From the NCBI GenBank assembly GCA_963920765.1, contig OY987251.1:7753219-7817218 (forward strand): a stretch of DNA of 64,000 nt, given 5' to 3'. Both the position numbers and the translations under genes were made by a program. Origin of the DNA: Ulota crispa. Its lineage: Eukaryota > Streptophyta > Bryopsida > Orthotrichales > Orthotrichaceae. The notes beneath the pieces were generated by a model. The model did no database searches and had not been told where the DNA came from. It saw only the letters and a program-made list of their open reading frames with translations. This document shows, piece by piece, positions 7,482-58,681 of this stretch. How positions within the stretch are numbered: the first letter of the stretch is position 1; every line of letters starts with the position of its first letter.

Positions 7482-9805
7482 GACACATACTTGACATCCA
7501 TTCAAGTGGATCTCCCCTTTGCACTACTCTCAACAATCCTTATCAATAACACTTTGAAAATTGATAATTCAAAATTAGTTCTTGAAGGAATTTTGGAATG
7601 AAAAAATTAAATAGTTCTTACAATGCTTAATTATTTTCCTTCACATTAGAAAATAGTAACTTCTAATTGTGGTAGTTTTTTAAAGATGAATTTTATCGTG
7701 ATTACTTTGTAAAGGAGTATGATCTTTTGGATTGAAAAATTTAAGTTTTGAGATGAAATGAAAACATGTACTCTTTAAATTATAGAATAGTTACAGAGAA
7801 AAGTTTTGAGAGGTCTATATATTCAACAAATGCTAATAAACAAACCATAAAAGTCTAGTAACATGAAGATGGATGAAAAGTCAAAATTTGTAAGCAAGGG
7901 ACTTGTTTACGTGCGTTAATTATTTAAAAATGTGAATGCTTGGGCTTTAGAGGTCAAGAAAAACAAAACAAACAAAAAAAGTATAAATACTACAATATCC
8001 AGAAATGTCATTTTAAATCATACCCTTTCCAATTCAGTCATCCCAAATGTAAGTTCGTCTGTTGGGAGCGGTCGAAATTCACTCATATTCTGTGAAAATT
8101 ATGATGTGAATGTCAGCTTAATTGTAAAACATAAAACTTTATACAGATCTGTTAAGTATAAATTTACATTTTTATCATTAACTACACTACAAGAAAAACA
8201 TATCCTAAACAATTGATCAGCAATGATTGGAAATGTGTAAAGTGATTCTAATTGAGTTATATGATAGTCATTGTGGACATTTGTAATCATTTTGTACTGG
8301 TTATTTAGAATTCCTAGTAGTGTAGAAGTACATGCATATGTCTATAAAAGCTCAGTCAATAATATCTTTAATTTGAATGGGACTGAAAGGTGATATCAAT
8401 GATTCCAATATAAAATATATAAAAAAATGTCATTTTATATGAAGGAGGAAGATTGTACAAAGTCAACAAGATTATTATATTAGTTATACAAAACATGAAG
8501 TCTCTAAATTTGTTGAATAAAAAGAGTCATACCGGAGTGTTTTGCAAAGCATAAATTATAGCTAGCGTGGCAATTTCGGGAACCCATACTTCACCCAATA
8601 TTTTCCATTTCTATAACCATCCATAAAAAAAACCATTTTTTATGCTTATTAAAAAATAAACAACAAGAATTCAATTGACTTTGAAATTGGAAAAACATGA
8701 TGTTTGTAAATGATCAATTTTGTATTGTTAAATCAAAAAGAGTAAATCTTCTTTCTTTTAAATATTGTAGTACTAAAAAAGGTTGTCCTTTGTATTTATT
8801 GCATTTGATAGTCTGTATGTCAAGGCTTGATTGCGTGACGTATTTAACTATTTATGGACTATTCATGTAAGGTAAATTATTTTATTGTGGACATAATTAT
8901 TAGTTTGAGTTGTTAGATTGAAGTATAAAATGTGATATAATTACTGTAACAAGAAAACCCACTCAATATTTGGGAAGAGTTAAAGTTAAAATTAAATGTG
9001 CAATTGCACCATTTGTTAAAATATGTGAAAGCATTAGAGCTCATGTGAGCCATGAACACCACTCAACCGCTCATCAGAGTAAAAAATAAATAAATAAATA
9101 AAATACTTATGGTAGTGCTTGTGAATGCTTATAAAGATAATACTAATGTCTATTATAGACCTTTCTAACAATTTAACTTAGATGCATTGTTTGTCTATGA
9201 ATCCTTTCACAAATGTGGCTTTAGCACAAAGCAACCATGTCAATCCAAAATTAACGATGCCCATTCAAAACATATAATTAATTTCCCTATAATGCAATAT
9301 CTCACTATAGATGAAATATGTTGGACATTAAGTCCTAATTTTTTTGGTCTCCAAATTCTTTTTGAGCATATTGTTTTGACCACAATGAGGGATAGATTCA
9401 CTTTGCCCGCAGTGGAAGAAATGTTCACAAGAGGGTAGTTTACTTTTAAATGTGATCATTTTAATGTTTTTTAACATCACAAAGTCTCTCCATCTTCTCT
9501 ACATGTCTCACAAGGATTTTTATATATTTTTTGATTTGAACCTATGTCCCAATCTTTTGCAAGTATCTTCAAATGATTTGCAAGAGATTTTGGAGAATTC
9601 ACAAGTGGATGCATATGACGTATGTACATTCTAGTGTACAATCATGCACTTTGCATAAGTTGGATGTACAAGGACACCTATGGAAGGCAATTTTGTACTA
9701 AGAAGGCACCCTTTATTCTTAGTTTCTTACATCCTATCCAAAATTATACTTTTTTGGAAAAGAGTATAGAGGGAAGGAACTTCTAGTTAGTAATATAGAT
9801 CATGG
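7482..9805. other. AT-rich intergenic stretch, no supported gene
   Basis: Contains one CACTA-like MITE (8183-8335) and a short AAAT tetranucleotide run (about 9086-9105). At 9187-9634 on the + strand weak coding-like text occurs (for example FTLPAVEEMFTRG and DLQEILENSQVDAYD) that may be a gag-like retrotransposon remnant, but it is too weak to call. Confidence 0.5.
8183..8335. mobile_element. CACTA-like MITE (CTACACTACAAGAAAAA end)
   Basis: Left end CTACACTACAAG, right end AGTAGTGTAG, with a self-complementary body built on 'CCTAAACAATTG...CAATGATT' and 'AATCATT...GGTTATTTAG'. The CACTACAAGAAAA terminus is the classic plant CACTA/En-Spm end. Related copies lie near 20.2, 20.45, 21.67, 24.07, 44.75 and 47.55 kb. 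Confidence 0.65.
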
Positions 9806-10430
9806 CATGGTTGTTACTTTGAGTAAGATTTGGTTGTTGAACAGCAAATGCAAATGCACAAATTAGACTGCACATACATACATGTTTGTTCATTCTTGCT
9901 TTTTAAGGTATTTTTAGGGTTTTTGACCTAAAAAGGAAGAACCAAATTACTATTTTTTTCATTTTTATGACGTGATATGGTTTTAAATCCACATTTTGAC
10001 TTCATGTTGGCAACAACAAGTGCCATCAACATGTACAAAGTAATTTTTTTTTTTGTCATTTTTTGAAATTGACTATGAGTTTACTGCATTGGATGGACAT
10101 GAACCCAATTGGGTATTTTGAACGGACAATCGGGCAAATAAATGGACAATAACACCATATTTGTTAAACTGGAAAAAACGGGGGTACCATTTTATACTCC
10201 ACCTTAAACCCAAAAAGTTATCTTACACCAAATTCAAAGGTATCAAATTCAGTCTCAGGCACTAAGATTTTTTCTCCCACAAATTCTTCCTCTCAAGTGA
10301 AGACACGTGTACCAAAAAAAAACGCTGCAAGCTCCGTTTTAGGTGATCACCTAAAACCTCCAGAAGTCCCAAAATGTACTCTTTTTCCCAATGTAACAAA
10401 TATGGTGTTCAGTCCAATGTGACAACCATG
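9806..10430. mobile_element. GGTTGTTAC-type TIR element with a nested MITE
   Basis: Ends CATGGTTGTTACTTTG and CAATGTGACAACCATG form a terminal inverted repeat. The body carries the sequence found, in opposite orientation, between the PPO exon copies at 28-30.6 kb (for example CTTCATGTTGGCAACAA, CATGTACAAAGTAA, GACTATGAGTTTACTG). A smaller MITE (10151-10409) has inserted into it. Confidence 0.65.
10151..10409. mobile_element. MITE with AACACCATATTTGTTAA inverted ends
   Basis: AACACCATATTTGTTAAACTGG at the left is mirrored by CAATGTAACAAATATGGTGTT at the right. It belongs to a family ending GC(A/G)ATATT(C/T)(G/A)TTAA...GGGAAAAA, with other copies at 27001-27252, 28084-28334, 31945-32095, 35545-35694 and 37980-38233. 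Confidence 0.7.
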
Positions 10431-26399: not shown

Positions 26400-26690
26400 T
26401 TGTAGGAGTTTGAGTTGATGGACATGTACACAAAAAGAAAAAAGTAGCTCTAAAGTCTCAAACCCCATTTCACCAAGAAGACACCTCTTGTGGTATTTCA
26501 ACCAACAAAGTTAACCACAAGCGCCGTAAATAAATTTTTAAGCTACATCACGTTGAAAAGCCAATGAAATGTATATAAAGTGGACAAGCCAAGTAAGTAC
26601 TTATATAGTGAGAAAAACAAAGAAACAAAAATGCCAACTCTACCGAGTACCGAGTGAAAAAACTTGCCTTTGCTAAAGATCTATGGACTT
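26400..26690 (+). repeat. promoter-like segment, copy 1 of 2
   Basis: Shares with 27650-27950 a run of blocks in the same order: GTACACAAAAAG, CCATTTCACCAAGA, TTCAACCAACAAAG, ACCACAAGCGCC, CACATCACGTTGAAAAGCCAA, then a TATA-like TGTATATAAAGTGGACAAGC. No start codon follows in this copy; the similarity fades near AAGTGAGCAAAGAGC (about 26715). Confidence 0.65.
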
Positions 26691-27000
26691 TGGATTAGTA
26701 TTAATAAGTGAGCAAAGAGCATTAGTAAAATTATGAGGTTTTCAAGTGCCCCTTAATATGAGACTCTTTTAAAATGTCTTGAGCCTAAACTAGGTACATT
26801 AGAAGTGTGTGTGGAGCGTGGCTACTTTATACGACGCTATCTACTGTACAAACACTAGGCATTACAAAAGTATGGATTTAATATGGTATCCAAACTTGAG
26901 TTCACACAATCAAGTCTTGTGCTATAGTTTTTATGTGATTTTTTGGTATTGTGCACCATTGTGATTGAAAGGTTGCCTTATTTCCATTGGAACCCAAGAA

Positions 27001-27252: not shown

Positions 27253-27401
27253 TTCAAGGCTCTTGGTCATCAATGCACTCAAAGCTTTGGATTGGGAAAC
27301 GTAAGTTGTAAGGTATTTGATTATTTTCCATATCTCAAAGTATATATGAAAACCTTCTTTGCAGTCCCTTGAGAAGGGGCATGGAAGGGCCATCTAGAGA
27401 G

Positions 27402-27647
27402 CATGGTTGTTACATTGGACCAATTCTAACCAGCCCGTCTATCCGACGCAAATATAAATGGTCAAGGCATGGATACATATACCTTTTTTTCTTGTATTTT
27501 GTTTCAGTATGGGTTTAGACACAATCTTGCACTTATTCCAGAACATCCACTTCTTGATTTTAGAGTGGACAACCACCCCATTTGAACCCGTCTGTCCATC
27601 CGCTTGTCTTGTCTAACAGCAAAATCTTGCCCAATGTAACAACCCTA
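27402..27647. mobile_element. 246-bp GGTTGTTAC-type element with 8-bp target duplication
   Basis: CATGGTTGTTACATTGG and CCAATGTAACAACCCTA form the inverted ends. An identical CTAGAGAG lies on both sides (27394-27401 and 27648-27655), a good 8-bp target site duplication. That length suits hAT-like elements; no transposase is encoded. Confidence 0.75.
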
Positions 27648-27649
27648 CT

Positions 27650-28021
27650 AGAGAGTTCATTATTTTGCTAGTACGTGTACAAAAAAGAAAGAAGCAGCTC
27701 AAACCCAATTTCACCAAGACAACTCTTGTGGCACTTCAACCAACAAAGACAACCACAAGCGCCCTGAAAGCTTTCTAGCCACATCACGTTGAAAAGCCAA
27801 CTAAATGTATATAAAGTGGACAAGCCAAGTAAATGTATATAAAATGAGAAAAAAACAAAGAAACAAAAATTTCAACTCTACCAAGTGAAAAAGACTCTCA
27901 ACTGCCTTTGCTAAAGTTTTAAGGACTAGCAGCAACAAGTGAGCAAAGAGCGAGAGAAAGAGAAGCTACCATGGCAATTCGTGCCGTGCAAAATAAGATC
28001 TACAAAAGCAGCTTGAAATCA
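27650..28021 (+). pseudogene. promoter-like segment, copy 2, with an orphan start codon
   Basis: Same blocks as 26400-26690, including TATA-like TGTATATAAAGTGGACAAGC at about 27807, itself repeated as TGTATATAAAATGAG. About 165 bases on, ACCATGG gives a well-placed ATG at 27971 that opens a 17-codon frame (MAIRAVQNKIYKSSLKS) before TGA. It looks like the promoter, leader and first codons of a gene whose body is lost; the next sequence is a MITE and then the PPO exon array. Parent gene unknown. Confidence 0.45.
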
Positions 28022-28083
28022 TGAAATCAACGTCCACGAGGGGGGACTGCACTCCTGCACTCCTGCAGCCAAAAACAAAAAAC

Positions 28084-28334
28084 GCGATATTCATTAAAAG
28101 GGGAAAAAGCTTACAAATTGGGACTTTTGCATGATTAGGGTGGTCACCCTAATTTGAACTTCAACATTTTTTTTGGTACACGTGGTTTCACCTAAGAGGA
28201 GGAATTTGTGAGGGAAAAAATCTTAGTGACTCATACTGAATCTGATACTTTTGAATCTAGTTTAAGGTGGCTATTTGGGATTAAGGTGAAATACAAAATG
28301 GTACACATGTTTTTTCCCTTTTAATGAATATCGC
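28084..28334. mobile_element. MITE with GCGATATTCATTAAAAGGG inverted ends
   Basis: GCGATATTCATTAAAAGGGG at the left is matched by CCCTTTTAATGAATATCGC at the right. Same family as 10151-10409 and 27001-27252. It lies between the orphan start codon and the first PPO exon copy. Confidence 0.8.
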
Positions 28335-28345
28335 ATTAAAACAAA

Positions 28346-28495
28346 CTAAGCCTTGGAATACACAATGCGTGCACCCGTGAGCTCCAACCCGGCCTCCCCA
28401 GGGACAAACCCCTGCGACACCTCACCCACCGTGGTGATCACTAGCTCAGTCAGGTGAGGTTGCCCAATGAGCTCAAACTTTCATCAAATCCCAAT
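28346..28495 (-). pseudogene. PPO terminal-exon fragment, copy A
   Basis: Minus-strand match to the last third of the PPO final exon, ending in SKA and TAG like copy B. Homology stops abruptly after about 150 bases, at the IGI region, and goes straight into the transposon-like spacer. Several substitutions. No promoter or upstream exon, so not a gene. Confidence 0.8.
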
Positions 28496-28796
28496 TCAAC
28501 TTCCAAAGTGCCCAATTGAGGTCATGGTTTGTCCGATGAAGTCAACTCACAGTTGCCTTCTAAAAAATGGTACAAAATGATTAGAAAAACTAACTTTGTA
28601 CATGCTAGTGACACTTATTATTGCCAACATGAAGTCAAAACGTGGATTCAAAGCCATATCACATAATAAAAATGAAAAATGATCATTTAATTTTTTTATT
28701 TTTAAATCCAAAAACCTAAAAATGACAAAATGCCCTAAAAAGCACAACATGTCCGTTTGTCCATCTTGTCTTTTTGGGCAATCCACCTGTGCTGCC

Positions 28797-29180
28797 CTAA
28801 GCCTTGGAGTACACAATGCGCGCACCCGTGAGCTCTAACCCAGCTTCCCTTGGAAGAAACCCTTGCGTCACCTCCCTAACCATGGTGATCACTAGCTTTG
28901 TCAAGTGAGCTCGTCCCATGAGCTCCAACTTCCGTTGGATCCCAATCTTGTACGTCATGTTCGGAGCCAGTTCTGCCGCTGGCACCTGCCCAATGCAAGG
29001 GAACAAGAATAGGTTGCCCAGGAACTCCGGGCACCCGATGGAGGTGTAGTCGTATGTGGAGTTTGGCAGAAATGCAAAGATGTTTTGCAAATGCTGCTCG
29101 TGCCCATTCACTTTTAGCTTCAGCTCCAGCATCTCCTCACCATGACGGGAGGACTTGTTTGGATGCTGTTTGAGCGCCCA
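28797..29180 (-). pseudogene. PPO terminal-exon fragment, copy B, frame still open
   Basis: Covers the PPO C-terminal domain from the RHGEEMLELKLKVN motif to the stop. It reads in one frame through HLQNIFAFLPNSTYDYTS, CPEFLGNLF and GARIVYSKA. The exon's first half (the DPSW part) and all copper-binding exons are missing. Upstream it runs into spacer sequence that happens to stay open and adds MDHDLSWALWAL, which is not PPO. Being uninterrupted suggests a recent copy. Confidence 0.85.
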
Positions 29181-29485
29181 AAGTGCCCAACTGAGGTCAT
29201 GGTCCATTTTGATGAAGGCAACTCATAGTTGATTTTTAAAAAATGGTGCAAAATGATAAAAAAAAAAAAAAAAAAAAAAAACTTTGTACATGTGTACATG
29301 TTAGTGACACTCATTGTTGCCAATATGAAGTTGGACTCAAAGTCATATCTGATATCACATAATAAAAATGAAAAATGATCATTTCATTCTTTTATTTTTA
29401 AGTCCAAAAACCTAAAAATGCCCTAAAATACATGACACAACACATTTGTCCGTTTTGTCTTTTTGGGCAATCCACCTATACTGCC

Positions 29486-29868
29486 CTAAACCTTAAAGTA
29501 CACAATGCGTGCACCCATGAGCTCCAACCTAGCTTCCCCAGGGACGAACCCTTGGATCACCTCCCTAACCATGGTGATCACCAGCTCCATCATGTGAGGT
29601 CGTCCCATGAGCTCCAACTTCCGTCAAATTCCGACCTTGTACGTCATATCTAAAGCCAGTTTTGGCGTTGGCGCCTGCCCGACATGAGGGAACGAGAACA
29701 AGTTGCCTAGGAACTCCGGGCACCGGATGGAAGTGTAGTCGTACGTAGAATTTGGCAGGAATGCGAAGATGTTTTGCAAGTGCTGCTTGTGCCAATTCAC
29801 TCTCAGCTTCAGCTCCAACGTCTCCCTACCATGATGCTCAGACATGTTCAGACGCCCATTTGAACGCC
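29486..29868 (-). pseudogene. PPO terminal-exon fragment, copy C, with nonsense change
   Basis: Same extent as copy B. Where the intact gene reads IGIRRKLEL, this copy reads VGI, stop, RKLEL: CGA has become TGA, a change expected from decay of a methylated CpG. The rest aligns without indels. Confidence 0.85.
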
Positions 29869-30158
29869 AAAAGTGCCCAATTGAGATCATGGCCATTTCA
29901 ATGAAATCAACTCACAGTTGACTTTAAAAAATTGTACAAAATGATAAAAAAACTAACTTGCTTTGTACATGCTAGTGACACTCATTGTTGCCAATATGAA
30001 AATCAAAACGTGGATTCAAAGCCATACTACATAAACAAAATGAAAAATGATCATTTGATTTTTTATATTTAAGTCAAAAAGCCTACAAATGCCCTAAAAA
30101 ACATGACACGACACATATCTGTCTGTCTTGTCTTTTTAAACAATCCACTTGTGCTGTC

Positions 30159-30340
30159 CTAAGCCTTGGACTACACAATGCACGCACCCGTGAGTTCTAA
30201 CCCGACCTCACTAGGGACAAACCCTTGCAACACCTCCCTGACCATGGTGTAGTGCTTGTGCCAATTCACTCTCAGCTTCAGCTCTAGCATCTCCTTGCCA
30301 TCACGGGCGGACATGTTCTAACTTCGTTTGAGTTTGAACG
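30159..30340 (-). pseudogene. PPO terminal-exon fragment, copy D, internally deleted
   Basis: The two ends of the fragment are present, but the middle is lost: the sequence jumps at about 30248 from the segment coding around VITMV to the segment coding around VNWHKH. About 200 bases are missing compared with copy C. Confidence 0.8.
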
Positions 30341-30676
30341 CCCAAAGTGCTCAATTGAGGTCATGGTTTGTCTGTTGAAGTCAACTCATAGTTGTTTTTA
30401 AAAACATAATACAAAATGATAAAAAAATAAACTTACTTCATACATGTTAGTGACACTCATTGTTATCGACACAAAATTGGATTCAAAACCATATCACATA
30501 ATAAAAATGAAAACTGATCATTTGATTCTTTTATTTTTAAGACAAAAAACCTAACAATGACAAAATGCTCTTAAAAACACAACACATAGGTTTATCCGTC
30601 TTGTCTTTTTGGGCGGTCCACCTATGTTGTCAACCTAAATTTGCCCAAAGTAACAACCCTAGTGGGTAGAGATGCC

Positions 30677-33494
30677 CTAAACCTTGGAGTACACAATGCG
30701 TGCACCCGTGAGCTCTAACCCAGCTTCCCCAGGGACAAACCCTTGCGTCACCTCCCCGACCATGGTGATCACCAGCTCCGTCAAATGAGCTCGTCCCATG
30801 AGCTCCAACTTCCGTCGAATCCCAATCCTGTACGTCATATTTGGAGCCAGTTCTGGTGCTGGCGCCTGCCCGACGTGAGGGAATGAGAACAGGTTGCCCA
30901 GGAACTCCGGGCACCCGATGGAAGTGTTGTCGTACGTGGAGTTCGGCAGAAATGCGAAGATGTTCTGCAGATGCTGCTCGTGCCAGTTCACCTTGAGTTT
31001 GAGCTCCAGCATCTCCTCGCCGTGACGGGCGGACATGTTGGGACGCCGTTTGAGTTTGAACGTCGTGGGACCCGTGACGGTGTACAGCGGCGCTTTGAAG
31101 AGCGGGGTGCGAGCTATTAAGGCTGCGTCGTCGGCTGACGTGGCTGTTGGGTTGCAGAATTGCCATGATGGGTCGGTTGATCCTTGGGTCGCCCATTTCA
31201 TTGGTATCTCTTGGTACTTGTATCTGCGCAAAACAATTCGAAAATTCTCTGAGTCGTAAGTGTGCTGCGTGGGTGAACGTTGCCTGAGTTTGTATATATC
31301 CTCGGAACACAGATTGAAGGAAATTGCAGTGAGATCTACACTCAAAATCTAGTAAGGTAAGAACAGCCCTCTCCTTGAGTGTCCCCGATACCTACTTGTC
31401 TGAGTGATGTGAGTGACTGACAATCTTAAAATTGTTATGGGTGACAAAGTGATGGTTTTGGGTGATAAAGGGATGGTTTTGGATGACAAAGTTATGGTTT
31501 TGGGTGATTGGCATGGTGGTTTTGACTGTCCATGATCTCACTTTTTAAGAACTCCTCAAGTTAGTATTATGAGTGTATGAGCACACTAAAGACTTCACTA
31601 AGCATCTTCTTTAGTATCTCCTACAAAAAATCTAGTAAGTCTCCATGAGTGTCCCCATCTTGGATACCTACTTGTGCCATTGATGTGACAATTAAAAAAT
31701 AATAACTGGTTGTGGGTGACAAAGTGATGGATTTGGATGATGAGGAGATGGTTGTGGCCTTGTGGGTGATTGGCATGATGATTTTGAGTGCCCATGATCT
31801 CACTATTTAAGGACTCCTCAAGTTGGTAATATGAGCATAGCACACTAAAAACTTTACTAAGTGTCTTTCTTAGCTAATTATCTCCTACACACAAATGTGC
31901 ATTTTCTCTTATCTTCGACTTTAAAAAAACCTTTGTGAACAAAACACATTATTCATTAAATTGGGAAAAAGTGACATTTTGGGACTTTTGGGTTTAGGGT
32001 CTTTCAAAGAGTATTCACTATTCAACAAATAGTCTTTAAAAAACATAAATTTCAGAAGTCCCAAAATGCCACTTTTTCTCAATTTAATGAATAACCTGTT
32101 ACAAAAATACTTGCAATTGAAACTTTCAAATGGATGCTTAACTTCCTCTTCTTTACTTAGTTCTATTTTTTTCCAAAGCTCATCAACTCATTTTCCTACT
32201 CCAAAATCCTTAGTTTCACGCTAATGGGTGTTCCTACCTTAAGCAAAAGCAAAAACCAATGTGCGTGACGGAATTTCAGAGCGATGGAGAGTTGTGTTTT
32301 TTGAGTTTCAGGGACCTTCTAGTAAGCAAAAACAAACGTATACATGACGGAACACCAGAGCAACAGAGAGAGTTGTCATCGTTTCCGAGTTTCTGAAGGG
32401 GTTGGGAGTTACCTTAAGAGGTCGAGGTCGAGAGACTGCTTGACGCTAACAACAACTTGCTTCCCATCTTCATCATAAAAAGTGAACTCCGTATTAAGAT
32501 AATCAGGATCCGTGACATCTTTCCGGTACTCCCCAGGAAGCGTTTTCCACTGCTCCCAGATCCGATCGACATTCGCATGATGCGCAAAGAACACCGGATC
32601 CGATGCAGAATCCTTGTTCGTCGACATCATTCTCACATTCGTCCAAATATGAACCGGACCATGAGGACGGGATTCAATGGCGCCCATACCCGTCCCGCCA
32701 TAGTCGCCATACCGGTATGCCGCGCCGAACATGGTACGTGGGGTAACACCACCGGACACCGCTTGCGTCCACAGTAAATGTCTATTCTGCGCTCTCGTGG
32801 CGTTCAAATCTTGTGGGTTACACGCCAGCACAGTCTGGAACTCCACCAGTCGACCCGGTATAGTCGAACAGGTGTTCCTCAACGGATGCCACAACGACGA
32901 GGTTTTGTTAATAGGGTTAGCATATAAGCTAGTGTTGAGGGCGTATGCCCGTGGGAGCACATTTGGTAACGGATCTGTCACTTCTTGACTGTCCCAGTTC
33001 CAGAAGGGCAGTGCAAACGTGTCATCGTCGATTAGTTTAGCAAGGATTCGCTCGTTGAAGTAAAGGTATAGTCGGTGCCATGTGAAGAACAGCCAGTTCT
33101 GGTGAATCTCCAGAGGGTACTCGTTCCCTTCAAAGTAGAGATGGTTGTTGCAGTATGCGCAGTGCAGTCGGTACTGGGCTAGAAATGATCGACCGTCTGT
33201 CTCCGGGAGTGCTCGCATCAGTTCCACCGCTTTCTGGTACTTGGCGATGTATGCGTCGTCGACGAGATGCGCTGCTGGGCGGATACGCATCGGTAGCTCC
33301 GGTTGGAAACTGAACTTTCGTTGTGGACCTAGATGAGTTGCTGGCAGTGTGCAACAGTTTTCTACGGTGGAGTTGAAGGCCATGTTGCAGCGGCGTAGGT
33401 CTGGCGCTGGGAATGGCTTGGATTCTGCGTTGTGAGTTGTTGCTAGTAGTATGACCATAGCAAGTATCATGCCCGTCGTAGTAGACCTCCCCAT
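30677..33494 (-). CDS. PPO: polyphenol oxidase / catechol oxidase (tyrosinase family), two coding exons
   Basis: Exon 1 is 32413-33494, exon 2 is 30677-31223; the GT-AG intron of 1189 bases splits one Arg codon. The product has 542 residues. It oxidises o-diphenols to quinones with a coupled dicopper centre. CuA ligands are His111 (in HCAYC), His131 and His140 (TWHR), with Cys115 placed for the Cys-His thioether; CuB has His278 and His282 (HGPVH) and the FFAHHANVDR motif at 302-311. The C-terminal DWL/KFDV-type region follows in exon 2. Residues 8-20 are hydrophobic (MILAMVILLATT) and followed by NAES, a secretory signal; the plastid transit peptide and thylakoid signal of many seed-plant PPOs are not seen. 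I chose Met at 33494; Met at 33515 is possible. Apparently intact. Most of the intron is transposon. Confidence 0.95.
31354..32240. mobile_element. AAGGTAG-type transposon filling the PPO intron
   Basis: Left end AAGGTAAGAACA, right end TGGGTGTTCCTACCTT, matching the inverted ends of the 50099-50414 element. Inside, a block of about 270 bases (CTAGTAAG...GTGTCCCC...GATACCTACTTGT...GGGTGACAAAGTGATGG...CACACTAAA) is present twice in tandem (about 31352-31620 and 31632-31865). A MITE (31945-32095) is nested near the right end. Taking it out leaves an intron of about 300 bases. Confidence 0.65.
31945..32095. mobile_element. MITE nested in the PPO intron
   Basis: CATTATTCATTAAATTGGGAAAAA at the left mirrors TTTTTCTCAATTTAATGAATAA at the right. 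Same family as 27001-27252. Its centre carries a second inverted pair, GGGACTTTTGGGTTT and a CAGAAGTCCC stretch. Confidence 0.7.
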
Positions 33495-35199: not shown

Positions 35200-35510
35200 A
35201 TGTAAGCTTTTTCCAATAACGCGTGTAGTTGACTTTTGGAAAACAATGTAAAAACGTTTCTTTGTACATAATGACGACACTCATTGTTACCAACATGAAG
35301 ACAAATGACACAAAGTGAACTTGAAGTCATATCACATGGTAAAAAATGAAAAATTGTAATTGAAATTTTCCTTTTGAAGGTCAAAAATCCTAAACAAATT
35401 CTAAAATGCAAGAATGGACAAACACGTCTATATGTGCAGTCTATTTTATATGTCCTCATGGGCACTTGCCCTACTTGACAACTGAATCTCTCCCAATGTA
35501 ACAACCATGG
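35200..35510. mobile_element. GGTTGTTAC-type spacer element upstream of PPO
   Basis: Shares the landmark order of the PPO array spacer (TTGACTTTTGG, TTTGTACATAATGACGACACTCATTGTTACC, CATATCACATGGTAAAAAATG) and ends CCAATGTAACAACCATGG, the right terminus of the 27402-27647 and 9806-10430 elements. So it flanks the PPO locus on the promoter side as well. Confidence 0.65.
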
Positions 35511-58300: not shown

Positions 58301-58304
58301 AAGT

Positions 58305-58681
58305 AAGGTAGGAGCACCCATAAGCGTGGAAATAAGGGTTTTGGAGTAGGTAAAACATTTGACTAGCTTCGAAAAAATTATTGTAAGTTAGGAAATGGAA
58401 ACCAAAAATATTGGCATCAATTTCAAGGTTCCAAGTGCAAGCATTTGTTCACAAAGATTTTTCAAAATCCAAAATCATTGAAATTGTAGGAACCATGTGT
58501 AAGAGATGCTAAAAACAAGGCTTGTTGGTTCTTAAATAGTGAGATGGGTACTCAAAACCGTCATGGAGTCACCCACAACCATCACTTTGTCACCCATAAA
58601 TATCACTTAAGTACCCCTAGCCATCTTGACTTTGTCATTAACGCCCATGGGGACGTCATGCCCATGGGCTCGGCTACCTTA
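58305..58681. mobile_element. AAGGTAGG-type element inside an older repeat
   Basis: Left end AAGGTAGGAGCACCCATAAGCG, right end GGGCTCGGCTACCTT. The body shares GTCACCC-rich text and TTTTGGAGTAGG with the PPO intron element. It has split a repeat whose halves (about 58130-58300 and 58690-58790) are joined in the copy at about 39960-40160. AGT on both sides may be a 3-bp duplication. Confidence 0.6.

Follow-up and report, generated by a model that had tools for sequence, protein, structure and literature searches.

Behind an intact plant polyphenol oxidase (PPO) gene in the moss Ulota crispa, the end of the gene's own last exon is present in four further, broken copies that alternate with pieces of a miniature inverted-repeat transposable element (MITE). 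The stretch analysed, referred to here as the window, comprises 64,000 nt of contig OY987251.1 in GenBank assembly GCA_963920765.1 (positions 7,753,219 to 7,817,218 of the forward strand, or C10:7753219-7817218 in the 275 Mb genome that was searched), and all positions are those of the window. The origin favoured for this array, with a probability of about 85%, is insertion of a MITE behind the PPO stop codon, then an illegitimate duplication in tandem, deletion of a 3' end, renewed copying, and decay.

In the direction of the gene, the PPO stop codon is followed by T0, E1, T1, E2, T2, E3, T3 and E4 (Table 1), in which E1 to E4 are copies of exon 2 (intact exon, E0) and T0 to T3 are the spacers. 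All four exon copies are oriented as PPO and share 82–88% DNA identity with exon 2, and the E-values of the exon-piece matches in the DNA search, 6e-16 to 3e-131, place them beyond chance. What was copied is the terminal ~380 nt of exon 2, and since the copies begin ~165 nt inside it, they have no splice acceptor. A preliminary description of this DNA had proposed four broken last-exon copies alternating with a spacer, and this was borne out by the alignment, in which the spacers match one transposon consensus. It had also recognised one copy with an open frame (E3), one with a CpG-type nonsense change (CGA to TGA in E2, aligned over 29486–29856) and two with deletions (E1 and E4, both shortened), all of which were found again. 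Nonsense stops are, however, not limited to one copy, as E1 has two TAG codons and E4 has two TGA codons in the aligned part (three over a slightly longer stretch).

The spacers belong to a dispersed element. Copies of it with both ends (28 copies) are 333–374 bp long and have inverted ends CATGGTTGTYAC... / ...GTAACAACC plus three letters, and short terminal inverted repeats are present (CATGGTTGTYACATTGGG / CCCAAAGTAACAACC). The left end occurs 634 times in the genome at two mismatches or fewer, and a reversed control pattern does not occur (0 matches). Target duplications of 8 bp were sought at 36 loci, 28 of which were kept after both ends were found and repeats of one place were removed. 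Seven or eight of the eight letters are equal in 17 of these 28 copies, as compared with 0 of 756 mismatched pairs, with two end offsets picked after inspection of the ends (the control had the same freedom) and with one of the 17 matches, L063, having transposon-end-like letters as its flank. The genome further includes 39 matches to the hAT transposase domain PF05699. The CATGG... ends, the 8-bp duplications and the PF05699 transposases fit the hAT superfamily. The array copies differ from such an element in that none of the four retains the left end.

The possibility that the spacer is the ordinary 3' flank of PPO genes was rejected. Eight 3' regions of other PPO-like exons were fetched, belonging to the 8 of 13 PPO-like exon matches that lie outside this locus (29–41% protein identity) and each reaching ~1.2–1.5 kb beyond the exon match; none of them holds the spacer, the best chance match having an E-value of 0.059. 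Together with the 634 left ends, this indicates that the spacer is a dispersed transposon and not PPO flank. The preliminary description had allowed for plain gene duplication in case the spacer proved to be present at PPO paralogues and absent near 10 kb, neither of which was found, and its proposal that the copied unit is a transposon with the neighbouring exon is supported. The inverted-end element that it reported at 9806–10430 does contain the spacer sequence (9805–10136, 77% over 342 nt, in the opposite orientation), but the interval is not one element, since a second MITE with inverted ends at 10151–10178/10382–10409 is nested in it. Likewise, the spacer relative reported on the promoter side of PPO is present, but it is a weaker match (Table 1). 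A separate copy of the array MITE family, 246 bp long, lies at 27402–27647 and has an exact CTAGAGAG duplication at 27394 and 27648; an element end at 27599–27644 was considered as a lost fifth spacer and rejected, as it is part of this insertion with its own duplication.

Table 1. Features of the PPO locus and related repeats of U. crispa, in window positions.
Feature	Position	Strand	Basis or remark
T0, MITE copy with right terminal repeat, end 15 bp from stop codon	30335..30661	+	80% to consensus 55-382
E1, exon copy, internal deletion (30249/30253), two TAG stops	30159..30340	-	DNA search, alignment
T1, MITE copy without right end	29861..30158	+	83% to consensus
E2, exon copy, CGA>TGA nonsense change	29486..29860	-	DNA search, alignment
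T2, MITE copy without right end	29175..29485	+	76% to consensus
E3, exon copy, open frame, 125 codons plus stop	28797..29174	-	DNA search, open frame, alignment
T3, MITE copy without right end	28503..28796	+	85% to consensus
E4, final exon copy, truncated at its 5' end, two TGA, not followed by a T	28346..28495	-	DNA search, alignment
Expected surviving 8-bp target duplication beside T0 right end	30662..30669	.	Inferred from ends of 28 genomic copies; partner copy lost
PPO exon 2 (E0), intact	30677..31223	-	DNA search, open frame; weak PF12143 PPO1_KFDV match
PPO intron, GT...AG	31224..32412	-	Splice sites read
PPO exon 1 (tyrosinase domain and start of PPO1_DWL)	32413..33494	-	Open frame, Pfam PF00264 and PF12142, GT splice site after AAG
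Second-family MITE directly behind E4, 28-nt inverted ends	28081..28337	.	Related to MITE nested at 10151-10409
Outer copy of array MITE family, other MITE (~10151-10409) nested	9806..10430	-	Repeat comparison
Diverged relative of array MITE, upstream of PPO	35250..35446	+	72% over 197 nt

T0 to T3 all lack the left 39–46 bp of the element, beginning at consensus positions 55–62 where the left end is at 16, and on the right side of T1 to T3 the MITE passes directly into the CCTAA of the exon. E1, E2 and E3 meet the MITE of T0, T1 and T2 at one spot within ~8 nt, where MITE (TGTACG) and exon (TGAACG) have five of six letters in common; E2 and E3 are 6 nt shorter at this junction, at a TTTGA repeat. 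In E4, the exon homology ends ~228 nt earlier than in E1 to E3. Hence, the earlier statement that exon homology always breaks off within the exon and passes into one and the same spacer is correct for three copies and fails for the fourth.

In a tree with 31 genomic copies, T0 to T3 come out as one group (support 90/86, recovered in 92% of bootstrap trees), the 31 rows being those left after identical stretches were removed and a 210-nt floor was applied. An 8-nt insertion is common to T0 and T3. Among 35 genomic rows, it was not seen in 29 and six are unclear; the 35 include repeats (L050, L051 and L054 are the places of L008, L002 and L003). This insertion conflicts with the loss of the right end that is common to T1 to T3, and such conflicting private indels hint at exchange between units or at slippage. 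The terminal branches of T0 to T3 measure 0.083–0.20, compared with a tree-wide median of 0.083, and these branch lengths suggest a similar age for the array and for the activity of the MITE family.

The following order of events would give rise to the array. A non-autonomous hAT-like MITE would have inserted just past the PPO stop codon, where T0 and its right terminal repeat are observed. An illegitimate exchange would then have joined the interior of the MITE (..TGTACG/CCC..) to exon 2 (..TGAACG/TCG..), giving a tandem duplication of the terminal ~380 nt of exon 2 together with the MITE; the common junction is observed, and it may go back to a single event. One downstream unit would have lost the right end of the MITE, and the units would have multiplied by unequal exchange, as the common and the conflicting indels suggest. 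The copies have since eroded like other pseudogene sequence, with purifying selection maintained on E0.

Several observations weigh against this order of events. Simple tandem duplication predicts a terminal MITE with an intact left end behind E4; it is absent, so an extra deletion must be assumed, and the other MITE at 28081–28337 now lies near this assumed deletion. T0 to T3 are not grouped in a smaller tree that has the consensus for its fifth row (60 and 71% support), and the trees built from the units are star-like and do not give the order of duplication. The conflicting indels may be due to repeat slippage. Unequal crossing over, proposed in the preliminary description, agrees with the grouping of T0 to T3, the common junctions and the conflicting private indels, but the last of these could have arisen by slippage. 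Further points of this kind, which concern decay, are given with the C-to-T counts below.

An origin by tandem duplication of whole PPO genes that later eroded, with the spacer being PPO 3' flank or with MITEs inserted independently into each copy, is improbable. PPO families often expand by lineage, as stated in the accessible part of PMC3472199, and E4 runs into a different flank, part of which (27673–27951) has a 77% copy at 26422–26720. Erosion of whole genes would nevertheless have to account for three copies that begin at one interior position of the exon against one interior position of the MITE. Moreover, neither exon 1 nor the initial 161 nt of exon 2 was found a second time within the window, and the sole match to the PPO intron near the array (28079–28141) belongs to the second MITE family. 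The grouping of T0 to T3 also speaks against independent insertions, and the absence of the spacer from all eight fetched 3' regions against its being flank.

All six DNA matches to exon 2 lie at this locus, and none was found elsewhere in the assembly by a search that scores the best candidates only, skips very common words and, for this exon, covers DNA-level similarity. There is thus no sign of a transposon having carried the exon away, and the idea that transposition moved the exon is not supported. That a transposon captured the exon end (transduplication, or the gene-fragment capture of Pack-TYPE elements and Helitrons, in which a gene fragment adjoins transposon sequence, as in this array) and re-inserted it here is very improbable: the exon pieces do adjoin transposon sequence inside its terminal region, but no dispersal of them was found, they lie between T units and not enclosed by one pair of terminal repeats, and none of the four T copies has the left end of the MITE.

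The closest parallel for the favoured order of events is the maize P1-wr cluster, for which the accessible part of PMC2686159 describes tandem duplication by illegitimate recombination and then unequal crossing-over; that tandem repeats can arise from transposons is stated in the accessible part of PMC6947457. Units arranged head to tail, a junction with short homology, a transposon within the unit and later divergence are features that the U. crispa array has in common with these. One common junction, within about 8 nt, was found here for E1 to E3, and E4 differs. The array further differs in that its unit consists of a terminal-exon end and a MITE only, and in its four decayed exon copies.

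Changes private to one of E0, E2 and E3, polarised by treating the three sequences as a star, place constraint on the gene and not on the copies. Of the changes private to E0, 13 are synonymous and three nonsynonymous (p about 1e-4 against neutral), whereas those of E3 (13/15) and E2 (15/24) fit neutrality. The raw ratio of nonsynonymous to synonymous change (dN/dS) against E0 (0.16–0.20 for E2 to E4) might indicate constraint on the copies, but the polarised changes assign it to the E0 branch. A function of the open copy E3 was rejected. In simulations of neutral drift, its frame stays open in 33–61% of runs at 20–48 changes, so the open frame is expected by chance and is no evidence of function, and the 13 synonymous among its 28 changes fit neutrality (p 0.11–0.16).

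A new point is the kind of decay in the exon copies. They carry an excess of C-to-T changes in the CG and CHG contexts like that of the MITE copies, hinting at past methylation of the transposon type. With only changes private to one copy counted, the exon copies show C-to-T changes at 16/114 CG, 13/96 CHG and 10/348 CHH sites, and 0 of 5000 label shuffles reached the observed gap between CHG and CHH. The corresponding values are 72/274, 66/289 and 205/2095 for 20 genomic MITE copies (20 of the 35 rows, picked for reaching the right end and used in the consensus comparison too), and 15/44, 10/34 and 59/348 for T0 to T3; in MITEs, CHH change is thus raised too. These counts are most simply read as past methylation of the exon copies in the manner of the MITEs. 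A chromomethylase carries out de novo CHG methylation in Physcomitrella, according to the accessible part of PMC6453930. A literature search for CHG decay in pseudogenes found no report; absence of last-exon arrays from the literature is not claimed.

Less certain is that the gene itself was spared this decay. E0 has C-to-T changes at 2/44 CG, 0/37 CHG and 2/117 CHH sites, and three points again weigh on the unfavourable side. The contrast with the copies is modest (CHG, 0/37 versus 13/96, p = 0.019; CG, p = 0.16); at third codon positions, which leave E0 the most freedom to vary, CG change is alike in E0 (2/16) and the copies (5/39), with CHG change at 0/12 and 5/29, respectively; and E0 is under coding constraint. 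A more far-reaching proposal, that the trapped exon DNA took CG and CHG methylation while the matching exon of the gene, one MITE away, was spared, with a chromatin boundary persisting near T0/E1 for as long as the array has existed and with small RNAs that may still touch PPO, is rather unlikely.

T0 occupies the place expected for the 3' untranslated region of PPO and contains an AATAAA motif 141 nt past the stop codon; hence the MITE may supply the 3' end of the gene. An antisense effect on PPO, raised in the preliminary description, is unsupported by the layout: with all copies in the sense direction, there is no reason to expect an antisense transcript or a hairpin with exon 2. Perfect matches to exon 2 of at least 21 nt are present in E2 (21 and 26 nt), E3 (28, 30 and 32 nt) and E4 (26 nt), and these identical stretches of 21–32 nt make effects of small RNAs from the array on PPO possible. 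That the array acts on PPO at present, by way of read-through transcripts, small RNAs or a spread of methylation towards exon 2, is improbable. The perfect matches and the CG and CHG decay of the exon copies would be in its favour; the sense direction of the copies leaves no hairpin with exon 2, and the 0/37 CHG changes in E0 argue against long-term spreading into the gene.

The gene itself has the domains of plant PPO, namely tyrosinase, PPO1_DWL and a C-terminal domain. In the Pfam search, PF00264 and PF12142 exceed their cut-offs in exon 1, and the C-terminal match to PF12143 in exon 2 (E 6e-4) is below the curated cut-off. An alternative start is possible at an in-frame ATG seven codons upstream of exon 1 as given in Table 1. 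The intron lies past the point at which the match to the DWL domain starts. For the large Physcomitrella PPO clade, the accessible part of PMC3472199 reports an intron in this region, D3 (D for DWL); by this likeness of region, the gene may be placed with moss-type PPO. The intron of U. crispa includes a 21-bp minisatellite at 31434–31507, a direct repeat of ~250 bp (31370–31625 versus 31640–31889, 74%), parts of which (stretch 31370–31889) are similar to 58304–58648, and a hairpin at 31943–32100 with 73-nt arms that are 81% complementary and 12 nt apart. The hairpin resembles the ends of the second MITE family and is a possible source of small RNAs.

The second MITE family has a length of ~258 bp and is very abundant, with 5436 first-look candidates obtained with a composite query. 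Of the eight 3' regions fetched for the other PPO-like exons, four (L079, L081, L083 and L086) also hold matches to it. Further downstream of PPO, 27673–27951 and 26422–26720 are a two-copy sequence, 77% identical, for which the genome search gave nothing beyond these two places, and this pair is read as an older local duplication.

The array is an ordinary product of genome decay, and rearrangement of this kind is already well known. In annotation, the open copy E3 (28797–29174) could be mistaken for a gene or an exon. What the locus shows is a MITE beside a stop codon joining a tandem array of the gene's own last exon, and similar exon sequence is thereby found inside and outside a transposon context at one place, a within-locus comparison for testing decay driven by methylation.

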